IMG/VR virus record: IMGVR_UViG_3300030419_004446
Coordinates: 1-27,413 of that record
Length of the DNA stretch: 27,413 bases
Reading direction: 5' to 3' (one strand)
From: a virus
Position numbers and translations under genes: made by a program. Below, piece after piece: positions 1,111-11,460 of the stretch (position 1 is the stretch's first letter; every line of letters starts with the position of its first letter). The notes beneath the pieces were generated by a model, which had not been told where the DNA came from, made no database searches, and was given only the letters and a program-made list of their open reading frames with translations.

Positions 1111-1401
1111 ATCTTTTTTAACTTGTTGTTGTTGTTTATGTCTTTCTTTCCACACCAAACCTCTAGTTTCTTTATGTTCTTCTTGAACTTTTCTTCTTGC
1201 TCTCATAATAGCAGAAGGGTGCGATATTTCTTTCCTTGCCCACATTTTAAGAACAGGCATTAAATGCATATTTTTTATATTTAAATTGTATTTAGCTAAT
1301 TCTTCAGCCCATATTTCATATATTAAATACACATCATTATCTCTACAATGTCTTTTTGTTAAAAGAATATGTTTAATTTTATCTTGCATTTTTATTCGCA
1401 T
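1093..1401 (-). CDS. Conserved-looking phage protein (102 aa), possible DNA-binding
   Basis: It starts MRIKMQDKIKH with GAGG eight bases upstream and overlaps the end of the primase-helicase gene by 10 bases. The middle is helical. The stretch HPSAIMRARRKVQEEH near residues 61-76, followed by a basic C-terminus, resembles small phage proteins found next to replication genes in which an S-x-I-x-RARRKxQE segment is conserved; I recall the pattern but not a named function. The basic helices suggest nucleic-acid binding. The position directly after the primase-helicase suggests a replication role. Confidence 0.65.
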   Translation of the reverse strand: MRIKMQDKIKHILLTKRHCRDNDVYLIYEIWAEELAKYNLNIKNMHLMPVLKMWARKEISHPSAIMRARRKVQEEHKETRGLVWKERHKQQQQVKKDLGYNS

Positions 1402-3149
1402 TTTTCTATCCTCACATTATTAACAGTTAATCTAGCAAATAGATGTTCCTTTTCTCTGTTTTTATCAGATTTTATATCTATAAGCTCAACTAATCCTGTT
1501 TCTTTATTTTTGTAAGGTTTAAGAGATATAAGTTTATTTGCATTATATGCTATTCTAAATGAACCTCTAGAAGATGCTATATCCATACCTTCCTTGAATG
1601 CTGCTTTACTTACTTCACTAACAGCGAAAACAATCACATTCTGTCTTACTGCTAATTCCATAATAGCTTGGCTTGCTTCCTCAACTTTCATGTTGTTATC
1701 TTTCTGTTTGCTCTTAAATAGCCCCAAATGGTCAACAATTACTATTTCTGGCTTCCTAGGTAGCATTGTGATTCTTCTTTCTAATTCATGGGGATATGGC
1801 GCTGAGTAATCTACAGTTAACCATTTAAATCTTTCATCCATACCATTTTTCATCTGTTTATAATGATCTTTTAATTGCTCTTCATCCCATCCCATTTCAA
1901 TTTGTACAAATCTAGACCATATTTGTCTTGGTGACATTTCCATTTCAACAAAATATGTTGGTCTTTTGAAATAATTCACCCAATTTTGAAGTAACATAGT
2001 CTTCATACTGGCTGGTGGAGCTTGTATTATAACAGTTTCACCTGGATAAACAGGAAAGCTTTGACCATAAGGTTCACCTAGGTTTAATGGTTCTAAATCT
2101 TGAGCATAGAAATTAATTAATTCATTTTCCATACTACTAGAATCCATCATATTTTCACCTTTTATACCTCTATGTAAGCTACATTTGGCATCACAATAAA
2201 ATTTAATAACTGGGTCATCAGCACCATATCTATAACCTTGTCCATCATGTCCAGTATAACAGCCTTCTATTATACCTTCCATTTCTTCAGGTTTAAATAC
2301 TTCATCATCTATACTTACTTTTTGTCTCCAATTTTCCATAATAAGTCTAACAATATCTTCTGTAAAGTTCCATCTTAAATGAGATGCTAACCTTAAAGCT
2401 ACCATATGTCGTTTACCTTTTGGTGCACCTTCCATCATTTTCTGTATACATGTAGTATTTACAGGGTCTCTAGTATCTTTAACTTTTATAGATATTTTTT
2501 CTTTAGGCTTTTCTTTATCTAGCACATCAAAAACTTCTTTACCGCATTCTAAACTGTAGTCTAAATCTATTGTTTTTGGTTCAGCGCACCATTTATTTAT
2601 AGTTCTTTCTAAGACACTATTTTCATATAATGCTTTTTGTGGAAATGGTACTTTCCATAACCCAGATTTAGTATTTTTAGTATTTGGTATACGTATTAAT
2701 CTTGATTTATCAGTAACAGATGGGTCAGCAAATTCAAATATACCATGTTTTGTAAGCTCTTCTTTTACTCTTATATGTAAATTCTTACTAGGTTTCCATT
2801 TAAATGCTGTTTCTGATATATGTATATGAAAGCCTCTGCCACTAAAGTATATATAATATGGAACAAATAGTTCATCTAAGCGTACAAGTAATCCTGCAGT
2901 TTTTTGTGCTGCTTCCCATACACTTTCACCATCTACATCTAATATAAACTCATCAGGCATATATATCAATCCATCATATCCTGATAAAGATTTATTTTTA
3001 GCATAAAATTCTACTACATAATTATCATAATCATATAAAGACATAAATGCATCACTATCTGTACCTGTCCATTCATGAATTTTGTCTGTTGATTGAAAGT
3101 TATGTCTATTACTAACTCCTAATGCGAACTCTTTATATAGTTCTGTCAT
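1392..3149 (-). CDS. AEP-type primase fused to DnaB/RecA-like helicase
   Basis: This 585-aa protein carries two enzymatic halves. Residues 60-170 resemble an archaeo-eukaryotic-type primase (prim-pol): metal-binding ILDVD (D71, D73), the SGRGFHIHI strand (H108, H110) and basic residues R150 and R153. Residues 245-325 look like a helical linker with a Cys pair at 319/323. Residues 360-560 form a RecA-fold helicase with Walker B-like VIVDH (D473), a VSEVSKAA sensor-like strand and SSRGSFRIAYNANK. The Walker A is unusual, APPASMKT (377-384): Lys and Thr are kept but the glycine before Lys is Met. It would prime and unwind at the phage fork. Its ATG overlaps the upstream stop as ATGA. Confidence 0.88.
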   Translation of the reverse strand: MTELYKEFALGVSNRHNFQSTDKIHEWTGTDSDAFMSLYDYDNYVVEFYAKNKSLSGYDGLIYMPDEFILDVDGESVWEAAQKTAGLLVRLDELFVPYYIYFSGRGFHIHISETAFKWKPSKNLHIRVKEELTKHGIFEFADPSVTDKSRLIRIPNTKNTKSGLWKVPFPQKALYENSVLERTINKWCAEPKTIDLDYSLECGKEVFDVLDKEKPKEKISIKVKDTRDPVNTTCIQKMMEGAPKGKRHMVALRLASHLRWNFTEDIVRLIMENWRQKVSIDDEVFKPEEMEGIIEGCYTGHDGQGYRYGADDPVIKFYCDAKCSLHRGIKGENMMDSSSMENELINFYAQDLEPLNLGEPYGQSFPVYPGETVIIQAPPASMKTMLLQNWVNYFKRPTYFVEMEMSPRQIWSRFVQIEMGWDEEQLKDHYKQMKNGMDERFKWLTVDYSAPYPHELERRITMLPRKPEIVIVDHLGLFKSKQKDNNMKVEEASQAIMELAVRQNVIVFAVSEVSKAAFKEGMDIASSRGSFRIAYNANKLISLKPYKNKETGLVELIDIKSDKNREKEHLFARLTVNNVRIEKCE

Positions 3150-3477: not shown

Positions 3478-4008
3478 CTAAAAGGGTATATCGTCACTCT
3501 CGGAGGACTCAGAAGATACTGATTCTTCTGATTTATTAAGTTTAGGTTTAACAAATTCTTCAAAGAAAGATTCTGCTCTACCTTTCCAATAATCAACATC
3601 ATCTTTACTAAATGTTTCAACAACATTTTGAAATTCTGTTGGTGCAACTTTAGCTAATGGTCTTGAATATTTACCATCTTTATAGAAATAAACATTAACT
3701 TTTTTGCCTAATAAAGCTTCTTCACTATCATCCATTTTGACAACTTTACTACCATCAGGACCTTCTAATGCACTACTTATCCCTGCATTAGCAAATCTAT
3801 ATACTTGCCCTATAGCAAACTCTTCTCCATCTTGTCCATTTTTAGCAAATATTCTCATGTTAAAATTTTCTGGATATTCATCAAAGTATATATCCAAACA
3901 TTTACTTCCATTCCATTCATTATATTTAGCTTTTGAAATTATTAGTTCATGCCATCCTGTAGAGTATTGGTTATTTCCTCCACCTGATTTAATTGTCATT
4001 GTTCTCAT
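3478..4008 (-). CDS. Single-stranded DNA-binding protein-like
   Basis: The 176-aa protein starts at 4008 (AAAGGAGAAAAC before the ATG); earlier in-frame ATGs lack a binding site and overlap the Erf gene. The body is beta-rich with aromatic residues, compatible with an OB-fold. The last 20 residues are Ser/Glu/Asp-rich and end DDIPF, the signature tip by which bacterial SSB proteins recruit replication and repair partners. Its place between the Erf annealing protein and the primase-helicase supports an SSB role. The fold is inferred; the acidic tip is seen directly. It may belong to a phage-specific SSB family rather than the bacterial ssb family. Confidence 0.75.
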   Translation of the reverse strand: MRTMTIKSGGGNNQYSTGWHELIISKAKYNEWNGSKCLDIYFDEYPENFNMRIFAKNGQDGEEFAIGQVYRFANAGISSALEGPDGSKVVKMDDSEEALLGKKVNVYFYKDGKYSRPLAKVAPTEFQNVVETFSKDDVDYWKGRAESFFEEFVKPKLNKSEESVSSESSESDDIPF

Positions 4009-4018
4009 GTTTTCTCCT

Positions 4019-4522
4019 TTAAGAAATTGATTGTGCATCGTCATCATATTGAGCGATACCTACTATTGCTGATAATCCATATCTTCTGCCATATGTAATA
4101 GCAGACCCTACACCTTGAGCATTTTTCTTCTCTAATGGAAGTTTTACTTTAGATCTTATCCATTGTCCAGAAGTGTGCATTAGTGTTGTTGTTACGCATA
4201 CAGCACCCATTATCATTTCATTACCTTGAGTCACAGATAAACCATGTTTAGATAAATGTGGAAATGAAGATTTAATAACTGCATGTAAGTCAGCATAATT
4301 AGAATTAAAGAATGGATTCTTACTATCTTTTTTTGCACCTTCCATTTCAGATTGAGCTTTAGCTAATGCTTCAGCTAACTTATCTATTTCAGGTGATTTC
4401 CATTCATCAGATCTTCTATCATGCGCTTGATCAAAAGATTTCTCTTCTGCCTCATTTTTGGCTTTTGCTTCTAATACAGTTTTAGCAATGCCATTTTGTT
4501 TCGAAACATCGATATTTGTCAC
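4019..4522 (-). CDS. erf: ERF-family single-strand annealing protein
   Basis: The 167-aa protein shows ERF-superfamily hallmarks: an N-terminal helical segment leading to NPFFNSNYADLHAVI (about residues 68-82), HLSKHGLSVTQG, and near the C-terminus the classic GVGSAITYGRRYGLSAIVGI followed by DDDA. ERF proteins anneal complementary single strands in phage recombination and genome circularisation. The start is GTG, six bases after AGGAGG. The protein ends just after the core and lacks the long variable C-terminus of P22 Erf. The SSB-like gene begins 10 bases downstream, a natural functional pair. Confidence 0.9.
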   Translation of the reverse strand: MTNIDVSKQNGIAKTVLEAKAKNEAEEKSFDQAHDRRSDEWKSPEIDKLAEALAKAQSEMEGAKKDSKNPFFNSNYADLHAVIKSSFPHLSKHGLSVTQGNEMIMGAVCVTTTLMHTSGQWIRSKVKLPLEKKNAQGVGSAITYGRRYGLSAIVGIAQYDDDAQSIS

Positions 4523-4622: not shown

Positions 4623-5276
4623 TTAAGAAACTAATTTCTTTTTATCAAGTATTAATGTTGAGAAATTGAAAATAATTTCTTTGAAGTAAGGTTGTTTCAT
4701 AACCAGATTCTTAATAGAATTTGATATAAAGCTACCACTCATATTAGAACAGTAACTTGTAGCCTTTCGTGTGCATGGTTCAGAATCAGCGTCTTCATCA
4801 GAATACCAATTCTTCTCATATTTGTTAACAGTTATATTATCATATATATACTGTTGATATTGTTCAGCTCCCATTCTACCATCAATAACAAATGCTGGTT
4901 TAATAGGACATTCTGCTAATAATTTTACTATTTCCATACGAGCAGACATACTATCTAGTCCAAGTATCAATATATCATCCTTAGTTCCTAGATAACGTTC
5001 AAACTTATTATTTGTAGGTTTAACTTCAATAGAGCATTCTATTTTTTTAATGTGTGTGTATAAGGCATCCACTTTAGATTTACCAATATCTTCATCTATA
5101 TATTGACTAACACCAACATTTTCTATTCCTACTTTATCAAAATCATACAAATAGAATTTATTAGCACCTAATCTAGCTAATTGTGTGGCTACGGAGCTTC
5201 CAATAGCCCCGCAACCTACAATATGGAATCCTACATCAGATATATCAGCTATATCCTGACTTCTCAAGTTTCTCAT
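4623..5276 (-). CDS. ThiF/E1-like ubiquitin-like-activating enzyme
   Basis: This 217-aa protein has the E1/ThiF/MoeB adenylation fold: a Rossmann loop VGCGAIGS (GCGAIG at 21-26), the acidic strand YDFDKV (D45, D47), then ENVGVSQY...DIGKSKVDAL matching the family's N-x-x-x-Q...diG..Ka region. It continues with ILGLDS (D108), the DGRMGAE segment (132-138) and PCTRKATSY with Cys168, a candidate thioester or metal Cys. The usual Arg of the 'RQ' pair is absent. E1-like enzymes adenylate the C-terminal Gly of a ubiquitin-like protein. Its ATG overlaps the JAB stop as ATGA, so the two are coupled. Confidence 0.85.
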   Translation of the reverse strand: MRNLRSQDIADISDVGFHIVGCGAIGSSVATQLARLGANKFYLYDFDKVGIENVGVSQYIDEDIGKSKVDALYTHIKKIECSIEVKPTNNKFERYLGTKDDILILGLDSMSARMEIVKLLAECPIKPAFVIDGRMGAEQYQQYIYDNITVNKYEKNWYSDEDADSEPCTRKATSYCSNMSGSFISNSIKNLVMKQPYFKEIIFNFSTLILDKKKLVS

Positions 5277-6241
5277 AGCATGTATCCTCCATTATAAGAA
5301 TGAAGTTCCATCATTGCATCAGCAATATCAGAGAATTTAGCATCACAAGCTACAAGTTCATATGGAGCTGATTCCATTTCTACAAACTCTTCTAACTCTT
5401 TTTTGTTCAATTCTTCTATTTGAACACCATATTTATCTATTTGCTTGTTAGTTTCTCTGATTGCTTTCTTGAATTTATGCATAGACCAGTCACCAATTGT
5501 TACTTGATGTAGAAATTCTTGAGCTTTCATACATGCATACTCATATTTAGCCTCAAAATTAGCTATTTCTTGCTCACTTGGAACATTCATTAGATCATCT
5601 TCTGTTAGTTTATAATCAGCCCAATTATAACTTTTACCATTTAAGCTAGAATCACCTAAAGTTAATTGATTTCCTTTAGATTGTAACCTAGCTCCACCAG
5701 ATTGATAAGAGCTTATACCTTTGTATGTTCTAGTTTCACATTTAGCTTTAACTTCAGTAACTATATCAAGAGGTATTTCTATTTCATTATCTTTACCAAT
5801 AATATTTAGTTCAACATCTTGATGTATTTCTACTGGTTTCCATACAGAAACTCTGCATTTATACTCTTCTTTAAGGTTTACTACAAGAGCAAAGCTTAAA
5901 TCTGACTCTCCTTCACCATATTCTTCTATACTAGATAGATCTGTACCGCTCCAGAAAGCTTTCATTGTATGATGACTATGCCACCAACAGAATCTAAAGT
6001 TAGTATCCTTGTATTTTACAGCCATTTGTGTGTAGTATTTGGCTAATTCCTCTTTATCTAGGTCACAAGTAGTGCTGCCTATCTCTTGTTTTAGTATTAC
6101 AGGCTCTTGAATAGTCCAATCACCATCTTCATCCTGTATTACAACTGACATACCGCCTATCTCACACTTTTCAGTATGATAAGCAGCTTTGGCATAATTT
6201 ATTATCTTATCCCAACATTCTTTATCTATATAAACTTCCAT
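5273..6241 (-). CDS. JAMM/JAB-domain metallopeptidase
   Basis: The N-terminal part of this 322-aa protein carries a complete JAMM motif: Glu27 in KCEIGG, then WWHSH (H88, H90), seven residues, S98, two residues and D101. These are the zinc ligands of JAB1/MPN+ isopeptidases, which remove or process ubiquitin-like proteins. Residues 170-322 are an extension of unknown fold with a helical segment. The gene overlaps the E2-like stop as TAATG and the E1-like start as ATGA, with GGAGG before the ATG. It is a strong candidate for trimming the two residues after Gly-Gly of the nearby ubiquitin-like protein or for deconjugation. Confidence 0.87.
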   Translation of the reverse strand: MEVYIDKECWDKIINYAKAAYHTEKCEIGGMSVVIQDEDGDWTIQEPVILKQEIGSTTCDLDKEELAKYYTQMAVKYKDTNFRFCWWHSHHTMKAFWSGTDLSSIEEYGEGESDLSFALVVNLKEEYKCRVSVWKPVEIHQDVELNIIGKDNEIEIPLDIVTEVKAKCETRTYKGISSYQSGGARLQSKGNQLTLGDSSLNGKSYNWADYKLTEDDLMNVPSEQEIANFEAKYEYACMKAQEFLHQVTIGDWSMHKFKKAIRETNKQIDKYGVQIEELNKKELEEFVEMESAPYELVACDAKFSDIADAMMELHSYNGGYML

Positions 6242-7632
6242 TATTCCTCCTCTAAGTTATTTGGTTCTGGGTTTTCTTGTGAATCTCTTACATATGCATC
6301 TAATTCAGCTAATTCATCAGCATCCATTGCAGCATTGATACGTTCTTCTTCTGCTTGTCTTTCAAGTTCTTCTCTAAGAGCTCCTGGATCAATTCCAGTC
6401 TCATTCACATAATGATCTTGTTCACGATCACCTTGTGGTTGATTAGCATTAGCACCAACTCCACCCATTCTAGTAGCCCATTGCAAAGTTAATTGTTCAG
6501 CTTGTTCTGGTGATACTGGTTCTGGATATGCTTGTTTATAATACTCACATTGATGTCTTAATGCACATTCATTAGTATCACAATAATCATCATGTCCAGA
6601 AGGTTGGTAATTACATGCATCCCAATTATTTGTACCGAATATAGCTCTATAATCATCAGTTAACCATTTAGGTTCACCATGGTATAGTGTTTTAATATTA
6701 TTATATGGGTTAGTATTTTGAGTATATCTACCCATCCAGTTTATTAATAACATAGCATATGCAGGTAATTCAAAATTATTCAATGCATTATTAATATCAG
6801 TAGAATCATCACCATAACAGATAGTCCCCCATCCTTCAGTATCACTATGTCTATGTCTTCTAGATATATAAGGAAAATTTAATATACCTCTATCATCATA
6901 AGATTCTGCTCTTCCATAACTATGGATATTAAATCTATTATAACGTGTGTTTAACATCATTTGCAATGGATATAATTCTAATTTAATTAACAAATCCATC
7001 TCTGCTGGTAAATTTTGCACATGTGTTGGAGTACCTCCTCTATTAGCATTATATATCTGTATTTCACCTGGATGCAAACATAGATTTATAACTAATTTAT
7101 AGCTTCTTAAACTAGAGCTTCCATCTTGTTGTAATAATACATTTAATACAGTTATTTTATCCATTTTACTTATCAGTTCAAGAAAAGCTTCAAATTTTTC
7201 ACATATATGATTTTTAAATGATTCTCTTCTCTCAACTAATACACTTGGATCTTCTAACCATTGTACTCCATCATATCTTAATTCACTAATTATTCTATCC
7301 ATTTCTCTTAAGTCATTTTGTATATAATTTCTTCCTGAAGTCCAATAATATTCTTCTCTAGACAAGTAATTATACATACCAGATGCTCTTCTTCTCAAGC
7401 CTACTCTTCTCATCATCATTTCAGCTATTTTATCATAAGTACCAGGTGACCATCTAAATGTCTTAGTAACACTTAGATTACAGTTATTACTGTTATTAAA
7501 TCTAGTCAGTTTTTCCATTATTTCAGCTTGTGGGCCAAAATAGATGTGATTAGCCATAGAATCTATATCTATAAAATCTATAGCTTGTCCAATATCTTGT
7601 TCATCAACATATACTATTTCATAATTATTCAT
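6241..7632 (-). CDS. Candidate E2-like conjugating protein with Cys cluster
   Basis: The 463-aa protein sits between the ubiquitin-like gene and the JAB gene. Residues 178-300 resemble prokaryotic E2-like proteins: beta strands (SYKLVINLCLHPGEIQIYN), then FPYISRRHRH and GWGTICYGDD, recalling the HPH(I/V)...G.ICLG catalytic motif, with Cys272 as candidate active site, then a helical INWMGRYTQ region. Cys340, 351, 356 and 362 may bind zinc. The N-terminal 170 residues are helical and unrecognised, and the last 80 are acidic. AGGG-type spacing precedes the ATG. E2 identity is an inference from this motif and context; it could instead be a structural or adaptor protein of the same operon. Confidence 0.6.
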   Translation of the reverse strand: MNNYEIVYVDEQDIGQAIDFIDIDSMANHIYFGPQAEIMEKLTRFNNSNNCNLSVTKTFRWSPGTYDKIAEMMMRRVGLRRRASGMYNYLSREEYYWTSGRNYIQNDLREMDRIISELRYDGVQWLEDPSVLVERRESFKNHICEKFEAFLELISKMDKITVLNVLLQQDGSSSLRSYKLVINLCLHPGEIQIYNANRGGTPTHVQNLPAEMDLLIKLELYPLQMMLNTRYNRFNIHSYGRAESYDDRGILNFPYISRRHRHSDTEGWGTICYGDDSTDINNALNNFELPAYAMLLINWMGRYTQNTNPYNNIKTLYHGEPKWLTDDYRAIFGTNNWDACNYQPSGHDDYCDTNECALRHQCEYYKQAYPEPVSPEQAEQLTLQWATRMGGVGANANQPQGDREQDHYVNETGIDPGALREELERQAEEERINAAMDADELAELDAYVRDSQENPEPNNLEEE

Positions 7633-7656
7633 AAACCCTCCAAGGTTAAAAGTTAA

Positions 7657-7744
7657 TATAGGGCTGATTGACCCTCGTTAGTAAGTTCGTCCACGGGACT
7701 TGCCCATGAGGCTCTTCTTACTCGCCTGTCACTACAGCCCTATA
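7657..7744 (-). ncRNA. Predicted three-stem RNA between Ubl and E2-like genes
   Basis: In the minus-strand transcript TATAGGGCTG (7744-7735) pairs with CAGCCCTATA (7666-7657), ten perfect pairs. Inside, AGTAAG pairs with CTTACT, and inside that CATGGG pairs with CCCGTG around a five-base loop; the T-G pair there is a wobble valid only in the minus-strand RNA, which supports that orientation. It shares AAGAAGAGCC with the element at 9110 and AAGTCCCGT with the region at 9756. It ends about 25 bases before the E2-like start and could tune expression between the two genes. Confidence 0.5.
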
Positions 7745-7760
7745 AGTTATAAATTAATAA

Positions 7761-7979
7761 TTACTGGTCACCGCCAGACTTATTATTATTAACAGCTGCA
7801 ACAATATCACCCTCTGCAATAGCATGAGTGTTAGTTACAGATACACCGTTAACAGCAACAGATGAACTTGCAGTTATATCATCTGGAAATTCATTTCTTA
7901 ATTGCTCAACAGTATCAGCGTTAGTTTGTCTTTCTACAAAGCCGCCACCTTGAAGAAATTTTATTGTTTTAGTTGCCAT
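7761..7979 (-). CDS. Ubiquitin-like beta-grasp protein with GG-DQ tail
   Basis: This 72-aa protein has the size and order of a MoaD/ThiS/ubiquitin-like beta-grasp fold: strand TIKFLQ, strand GFVERQTN, helix TVEQLRNEF, strand SSVAVNG, a turn, and strand GDIVAAVNN, then a flexible tail. It ends Ser-Gly-Gly-Asp-Gln, so the di-glycine at 69-70 is followed by two residues. Ubiquitin-like proteins must end in Gly-Gly to be adenylated by an E1, so processing by a peptidase such as the neighbouring JAB is implied. AAGGAGGTG precedes the ATG, which directly follows the upstream TAA. Fold and tail are read from sequence; conjugation is inferred. Confidence 0.78.
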   Translation of the reverse strand: MATKTIKFLQGGGFVERQTNADTVEQLRNEFPDDITASSSVAVNGVSVTNTHAIAEGDIVAAVNNNKSGGDQ

Positions 7980-10750: not shown

Positions 10751-10885
10751 TTATCTCCTTGTAAGTTGAAATTTAGGCCACCTTCCACCTCTTAGGTATC
10801 TAGCAGCAATTACGATTAAATAACATTTTAATATTATTGTTATAGAACTCTCTACAACATATATAAAATCAAATAAGAAACTCAT
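10751..10885 (-). CDS. 44-aa membrane protein, candidate holin
   Basis: AAAGGAGGTT precedes the ATG at 10885, which overlaps the DUF1287 stop as ATGA. The product has one hydrophobic span (about residues 5-28) followed by a positively charged tail (ARYLRGGRWPKFQLTRR), the topology of a small single-span membrane protein with an inside-positive C-terminus. Translational coupling to the secreted hydrolase makes it the best holin candidate in the window, although many phage holins are longer. Confidence 0.55.
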   Translation of the reverse strand: MSFLFDFIYVVESSITIILKCYLIVIAARYLRGGRWPKFQLTRR

Positions 10886-11460
10886 TTAATTAACCTCCTT
10901 TGGCCCATGTATTTATAATGTCCTGTAATGTTAAACTTAAACAGGATGTCTTCAATAACTACACCACCACCAGCATTATGTATTATAAGTGGTACTCCAT
11001 CATCATTACGTTGATAACTTACTATGCCTATGTGTGGCAATGTATCTTTATATAAGTTCCAAGTTACTATATCACCTGGATGATATAATGTTTTAATAGG
11101 TCTAATACTTCTACTAACACCTACTTTCTCAAAGAATACCATTAAATTCTTGACTCTTCTATGATCTATATTACTATCTACCTCAACAGGTATATCATAG
11201 TCATCTATATTATTAAGTATATCTTCATGTATTATTTGTTGTAAATCTATTCCACAACAATCACGATATGCTCTGATTATAACATCAGTACATACACCAA
11301 TATGTCTTGGTATGTCACCATTAGGATAGTCAATAGCATAATAACTACCATCATAAGTAACGTGTGTTTTAGTTTGTGTTACAGCAGCCTCTACTAACTT
11401 GTCTGGAAATAAAGGCTGTGCAACTAGAAGAGAAGAGAATATTATTAAATACTTTATCAT
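10882..11460 (-). CDS. Secreted DUF1287-family putative cell-wall hydrolase
   Basis: The 192-aa protein starts with a hydrophobic signal-like segment (residues 4-16, possible cleavage after about 26). The rest matches DUF1287 as I recall it: YYAIDYPNGDIPRHIGVCTD with Cys57, NIDHRRVKNL (97-106), HPGDIVTW (127-134), LPHIGIV with His143, and LIIHNAGGG with His161. Cys plus His in this order is typical of NlpC/P60-like papain-fold hydrolases, so peptidoglycan cleavage in the periplasm during lysis is likely. A signal sequence would allow export without a holin. The start overlaps the upstream stop as ATGA. Confidence 0.8.
   Translation of the reverse strand: MIKYLIIFSSLLVAQPLFPDKLVEAAVTQTKTHVTYDGSYYAIDYPNGDIPRHIGVCTDVIIRAYRDCCGIDLQQIIHEDILNNIDDYDIPVEVDSNIDHRRVKNLMVFFEKVGVSRSIRPIKTLYHPGDIVTWNLYKDTLPHIGIVSYQRNDDGVPLIIHNAGGGVVIEDILFKFNITGHYKYMGQRRLIK

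Follow-up and report, generated by a model that had tools for sequence, protein, structure and literature searches.

We found that a viral DNA record carries four adjacent genes that together would make up a complete, virus-specific pathway for conjugating and deconjugating a ubiquitin-like protein (Ubl), a predicted function to which we give a probability of roughly 75%, with a replication or recombination protein as the best guess for its target. The window analyzed here covers positions 1-27,413 of the 56,269-bp IMG/VR virus record IMGVR_UViG_3300030419_004446. Judged from its sequence and its relatives, the cassette is a real, widespread, virus-specific variant of predicted prokaryotic Ubl conjugation. 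Its genes are:

7761-7979, minus strand: Ubl, 72 aa
6241-7632, minus strand: E2-like protein, 463 aa
5273-6241, minus strand: JAB metallopeptidase, 322 aa
4623-5276, minus strand: E1 activating enzyme, 217 aa

Transcription on the minus strand runs from Ubl through the E2-like and JAB genes to E1. The E2-like and JAB genes overlap as TAATG and the JAB and E1 genes as ATGA, and a GGAGG-type ribosome-binding site precedes each of the four starts (for Ubl, AAGGAGGTGCTTAAATG). The 128-bp gap between the Ubl and E2-like genes contains a structured RNA element. The predicted functional sites in three of the proteins are:

7770-7775, minus strand: codons of Ubl Gly69-Gly70, the predicted activated C-terminus once the DQ tail is removed (48/48 in the alignment)
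6817-6819, minus strand: codon of E2 Cys272 (GTIC), the predicted catalytic cysteine (77/77)
6547-6615, minus strand: predicted Zn-binding cluster of the E2-like protein, Cys340-x10-Cys351-x4-Cys356-x5-Cys362 (each Cys 74/77)
4773-4775, minus strand: codon of E1 Cys168 (EPCTRKATS), the predicted catalytic cysteine (39/39)

The window E1 matches Pfam ThiF at 7e-19, and a profile built from 39 relatives matched UBA6, UBA5, MccB and ThiF in the PDB, as well as Cap2 E1 domains. The enzyme is minimal (217 aa, without a rhodanese domain), with the nucleotide-binding loop GCGAIG and a conserved C-x-x-K/R-x-T motif that resembles a catalytic loop. Residues G21, G23, D45, D47, K68, D108 and C168 are kept in 39/39 sequences, crAss-type E1s included.

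The Ubl ends in K67-S68-G69-G70-D-Q, that is, Gly69-Gly70 followed by the two-residue tail DQ. By column counts, Gly-Gly is kept in 48/48 relatives, and the tail beyond it is short and variable (0-4 residues in 44/48). The window protein matches Pfam ThiS with E 0.003, which is under the Pfam cut-off; ThiS is matched by 23/48 relatives (best 3.5e-4), and the top PDB match of the Ubl profile is MoaD, with a non-significant E of 0.049. Together these data support a ubiquitin-like protein of the predicted beta-grasp, ThiS/MoaD-like type. Among twelve close relatives, Ubl evolves most slowly (92% identity, dN 0.05, dS 0.40), more slowly even than ERF, primase-helicase and the single-strand-binding protein (SSB), while E2 evolves fastest (57% identity). 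A constrained modifier with a faster-evolving transfer enzyme would be the pattern expected for ubiquitin-like pathways.

The third protein matches Pfam Prok-JAB at 7e-5, and the best PDB match of its profile is an archaeal Rpn11-like protein (4e-4). Its JAMM ligands E27, H88, H90, S98 and D101 are invariant (36/36), and we predict that it processes and deconjugates Ubl. Within the window family we rejected a role in tail trimming only, because Ubls already ending in Gly-Gly keep a JAB neighbor. Hence, the JAB probably also deconjugates.

For the 463-aa protein, Pfam, NCBIfam and other family libraries gave no convincing family, and with 77 E2 cores no E2 family was among the matches listed (25 families). 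Cys272 is the sole invariant residue of the core (77/77); it is preceded by a [HFY]-P-[YF] motif, in which P254 is kept in 75/77 sequences, and followed toward the C-terminus by the four-cysteine cluster. With 13 full-length sequences, modeling gave a poor result (predicted local distance difference test score, pLDDT, 70) and a meaningless PDB search, so it was repeated for the core region with an alignment of 77 sequences. The resulting AlphaFold model of residues 122-374 reached pLDDT 90 and a predicted template modeling score of 0.86. Its chain runs from a long helix into a five-strand meander; the [HFY]P[YF] stretch and Cys272 come next, and two helices follow. By Foldseek against 350,542 PDB chains, its best but non-significant match was to the E2-variant fold of the Tsg101 UEV domain (probability 0.72). 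Against predicted viral structures it gave significant matches: the first after close relatives was a 420-aa protein (5e-5), the same length as the Flavobacterium phage Fpv1 counterpart (PHROG 15310), and a protein of a crAss-like virus (1.4e-4) and cr128_1 (1.2e-3) came next. The window-type and crAss-type E2 profiles match weakly (E 0.047), though their cysteines align, and the structure search gave the clearer link. The model suggests that the 463-aa protein is likely an E2-like Ubl-transfer enzyme.

Relatives were gathered by E1 scans of 2.9 million viral contigs, in which three overlapping scans gave 374, 354 and 409 relatives and 80 of each were retained. Counting window-type loci whose E1s are distinct and whose contigs extend 4.5 kb or more upstream of E1, we found all four genes in 63/63 non-redundant relatives. 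E2 precedes Ubl in L029 and L094, the JAB is fused to E1 in L070, and E1 and E2 are separate in every locus read. The four-part identity as Ubl, E2-like protein, JAB and E1 is supported by the profile matches of E1, JAB and Ubl, by the E2-like model and by complete gene-order conservation. An earlier reading of the window from its letters and open reading frames (the sequence-only reading) had reported the four genes, with positions, same-strand order and overlaps that we recovered exactly. It had also described a 72-aa beta-grasp-like protein with a near-terminal Gly-Gly, a JAMM peptidase with all metal ligands and an E1/ThiF enzyme with a GxGxxG loop and Cys168, and these identifications agree with our matches and residue counts, in which the named residues are kept far more often than chance would give. 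The search of viral metagenomes for the four-gene order that it proposed gave the 63/63 count above, and we encountered neither of the outcomes it named as contrary to its proposal, a 72-aa protein without a beta-grasp fold together with a 463-aa protein without an E2 or other transfer fold, and an unconserved gene order in relatives. However, it considered the set unusual for such a phage; instead, the set is constant in the lineage and typical of crAss-like and Flavobacterium phages.

In some relatives a spore-photoproduct-lyase-like radical SAM gene (PF20903, 4e-21 and 2.6e-23) is inserted within the cassette:

L003:8088-8957, L008:2708-3577 and L015:2032-2901: radical SAM insert between E2 and JAB
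L085:3573-4433 and L107:3068-3943: radical SAM insert between Ubl and E2

Among annotated phages, a related E1 occurs in Bacteroides crAss-like phages, Flavobacterium psychrophilum phages and a Xanthomonas/Erwinia jumbo group. When E2 or Ubl was searched singly against annotated phages, nothing matched; the crAss link came through E1 and later through profiles. In crAss001, gp79-gp78-gp77-gp76 correspond to a Ubl domain plus tail, the E2-like protein, JAB and E1, of which gp77 is annotated 'metalloprotease domain' and gp76 'thiamine biosynthesis protein'. The order Ubl-E2-JAB-E1 is kept in Crassvirales and Flavobacterium-phage loci wherever the contig permits, except that gene-order reading of these crAss-group viral loci detected neither Ubl nor E2 in L260 and no Ubl in L262. 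The crAss-type Ubl domains have an invariant SG end with a conserved lysine before it; a stop follows within a few codons of SG in L191, L233, L236 and L241, and most loci have a longer tail. The window-type and crAss-type Ubl families are homologous (hhalign E 2.3e-5). In the jumbo phages, E1 adjoins an 892-aa protein in which the motif IHPHM...GSLCLG occurs, and a 140-aa protein has SGG as its last three residues. The 227-kb jumbo phage genome yielded no JAB, as would be expected, in this one lineage, if a Ubl made with its Gly-Gly already free does not have to be trimmed.

The JAB gene is split around an insert in Flavobacterium phage Fpv1 (L043:3653-5945) and in L193, L207, L216, L219 and L236. 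The Fpv1 insert holds an opposite-strand open reading frame that looks homing-endonuclease-like by eye, and the JAB is unbroken in L247, a close relative. The split points to an intron close to the region of the metal ligands.

In an E1 tree of 72 rows, including window-type, crAss-type, PRTRC and cellular sequences, window-type and crAss-type E1s form one viral clade (support 99/91), with PRTRC and cellular E1s outside it. Among 84,980 bacterial and archaeal genomes we found 36 E1-domain hits, and 0/30 with room have the partner genes, by a pattern-based search that could miss distant relatives. The sole 'cellular' row within the viral clade, L268, is a 3.7-kb contig from a GTDB Spirochaetia metagenome-assembled genome and stands next to crAss001; it is probably a phage contig in a bacterial bin.

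We compared the cassette with known systems. The plasmid PRTRC set comprises ThiF, the JAB protein A, the E2 protein B and the Ubl protein C. As in the cassette, its Ubl, E2, JAB and E1 each have a small gene of their own in a single operon on a mobile element, with E1 near the operon end in both examples viewed (L115 and L116). However, the window E1 scores 33.6 bits against the PRTRC ThiF model TIGR03736, whose cut-off is 144.75, and the PRTRC JAB model TIGR03735 is unmatched by the window protein and weakly matched by 6/36 relatives (best E 0.0012). The families matched by 48 Ubls did not include Prok_Ub (protein C), Prok-E2_D (protein B) was absent among the matches listed, and the window Ubl did not match the one PRTRC protein C compared with it. 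The PRTRC E1s examined fall outside the viral clade, and their loci have ParB and other genes where the window has its replication operon.

The Bil antiphage system consists of a Ubl, an E2, a deubiquitinase and an E1. The same four activities are found within one operon (Hoer et al. 2024, as cited in PMC12660748), but Bil is a bacterial defense operon and the cassette is virus-borne and lies in a replication operon. The window proteins matched no defense or Bil model in PADLOC and NCBIfam, libraries in which the presence of Bil models is unconfirmed. Type II CBASS (cyclic-oligonucleotide-based antiphage signaling system) shares the E1 and JAB chemistry, and its Cap2 E1 domains match the window E1 profile; yet Cap2 joins E1 and E2 in one protein, which acts on a cGAS-like enzyme (PMC10097602), whereas the cassette has separate E1 and E2 genes and a dedicated Ubl. 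Hence, the cassette is neither PRTRC nor CBASS.

The Caldiarchaeum and eukaryotic pathways likewise have a Ubl with Gly-Gly and a cleavable tail, an E1, an E2 and an Rpn11-like JAMM (PMC5654768). In contrast, the cassette E1 is minimal at 217 aa, the E2-like protein represents a sequence family of its own, new and marked by a helical N-terminal part and a cluster of cysteines, and no RING gene was seen, in analyses that included no RING-directed search. Tail genes I and K of lambda and T1 are also a phage-borne Ubl (TAPI) and JAB (PMC1779556), but they belong to tail assembly, come without E1 and E2 and are organized differently.

From the parts, their order and the invariant active-site residues, all observed directly, we derive the following reaction steps. 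The JAB would trim the short Ubl tail after Gly70, exposing Gly-Gly. E1 would then adenylate Gly70 and form a thioester on Cys168, from which Ubl would pass to Cys272 of the E2-like protein. The E2-like protein would attach Ubl to a target lysine, and the JAB would take it off again.

Three genes downstream of the cassette bear on the target:

4019-4522, minus strand: ERF single-strand annealing protein, directly downstream of E1 (ERF Pfam 3.9e-26)
3478-4047, minus strand: SSB-like protein (phrog_378, E 8e-4)
1392-3149, minus strand: primase-helicase (DnaB_C 1.5e-9; primase phrog_16345 3e-17)

SSB and primase-helicase lie downstream in 80/80 window-type loci with 4 kb downstream, and an ERF or Sak4-like recombination gene in 73/80. 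Because the window-type cassette always sits in this operon, our best guess is that the target is a phage replication or recombination protein (SSB, ERF/Sak4 or primase-helicase) or a host factor acting on it. This assignment is the weakest step of the proposed mechanism.

Several points weigh against a conjugation pathway acting on replication. E1 has V56, after N53, where the N-x-x-R motif usually has its arginine. The E2-like protein has no Pfam E2 match, and its match to the Tsg101 UEV domain is not significant (E 0.036, template modeling scores 0.26/0.40); the E2 fold is the weakest link in the four-part identity. Lying close to replication genes is poor evidence for a target, nothing ties the cassette to a particular one, and the downstream replication genes differ in the crAss type. 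As for the E2-like assignment of the sequence-only reading, its GTIC motif stood, with Cys272 in 77/77 and an E2-like model behind it, but the fold found neither a significant PDB match nor a Pfam E2 family.

An alternative that we consider unlikely is counter-defense, in which the pathway modifies or outcompetes host Ubl immunity (Bil or CBASS Cap2) and the viral Ubl or JAB serves as decoy or eraser. Host anti-phage Ubl systems exist, as in cGAS conjugation (PMC10097602) and in Hoer et al. 2024 (cited in PMC12660748), and a JAB could strip host conjugates. However, the cassette is present in all relatives and not patchy, and this constancy argues against an optional counter-defense gene. Its constant place among the replication genes favors a core role over an occasional one, a full forward pathway is superfluous for a decoy, and the Ubl is more constrained than the neighboring core genes where an arms race would predict rapid change.

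We think it quite improbable that the Ubl is instead a sulfur carrier, converted by E1 to a thiocarboxylate as are ThiS, MoaD and CysO, with the JAB releasing the product and the sulfur being passed on to a nucleotide, amino acid or cofactor of the phage. Mec, which releases the CysO product, would be the model for the JAB. In sequence the Ubl is nearest ThiS/MoaD, ThiF/MoeB are among the E1 matches, and JAB peptidases also accompany sulfur-carrier Ubls (PMC1779556). Yet the set always includes a third protein, whose cysteine is invariant and whose topology is E2-like, and E1 retains its C-x-x-K/R-x-T motif. The 56-kb record has no rhodanese; other sulfurtransferases were not searched for, and host ones could serve.

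Attack on competitors or superinfection exclusion, by Bil-like tagging of other phages' structural proteins or of the phage's own virion proteins during assembly, is very unlikely: Bil does modify phage structures (cited in PMC12660748), but the cassette lies beside replication genes with the structural genes on the other strand, and it is conserved across one clade and not common to unrelated phages.

Returning to reversible conjugation, a wider claim is tentative and falls a little short of an even chance: that a complete, reversible Ubl pathway is a core function of ancient origin in several phage lineages, including crAss-like phages of the human gut, that it regulates genome replication and recombination, and that it is virus-specific with an E2 of a new family. 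In the literature accessible to search, crAss and jumbo phage papers included, we found no description of a phage E1-E2-Ubl-JAB set. Bacterial Ubl conjugation is known as anti-phage defense or from plasmid-borne systems; here phages hold the whole predicted pathway as a constant block. This would account for a gene block that crAss-like genomes conserve and whose annotations read hypothetical, metalloprotease and 'thiamine biosynthesis' (PHROG families, function unassigned), and it is testable in cultured crAss001, DAC15 and Flavobacterium phages. Since a conserved lysine precedes the C-terminal motif, exact tryptic remnants are predicted on modified lysines (SGG +201.075, TGG +215.091 and crAss-type SG +144.054 Da), which can be searched for in existing infection proteomes.

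The gap between Ubl and E2 holds a further feature:

7655-7748, minus strand: structured RNA element with constant ends and a variable middle

Folding of 7640-7760 gave a minimum free energy of -34.9 kcal/mol (z -2.69). Across 18 distinct sequences the element measures 85-103 nt; its ends, AUAGGGCUGUAGUGACAGGCGAG ... CUAACGAGGGUCAAUCAGCCCUAU, are nearly constant and its middle is hypervariable. Rfam has no family for it. It also occurs at L003:6668, L007:7497, L011:1976, L012:7700, L015:598, L002:2920, L009:5132 and L026:2097. Its place within the early operon varies among relatives, and we dropped it as a part of the cassette because it is located elsewhere in L002, L009 and L026. It could be a ribozyme, a regulatory RNA or a mobile element.

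Library scans of the window proteins found terminase, portal and capsid genes on the strand opposite the cassette; hence, the virus is a tailed phage. It also encodes a DUF1287 protein at 10882-11460 on the minus strand (PF06940, 6.5e-58).

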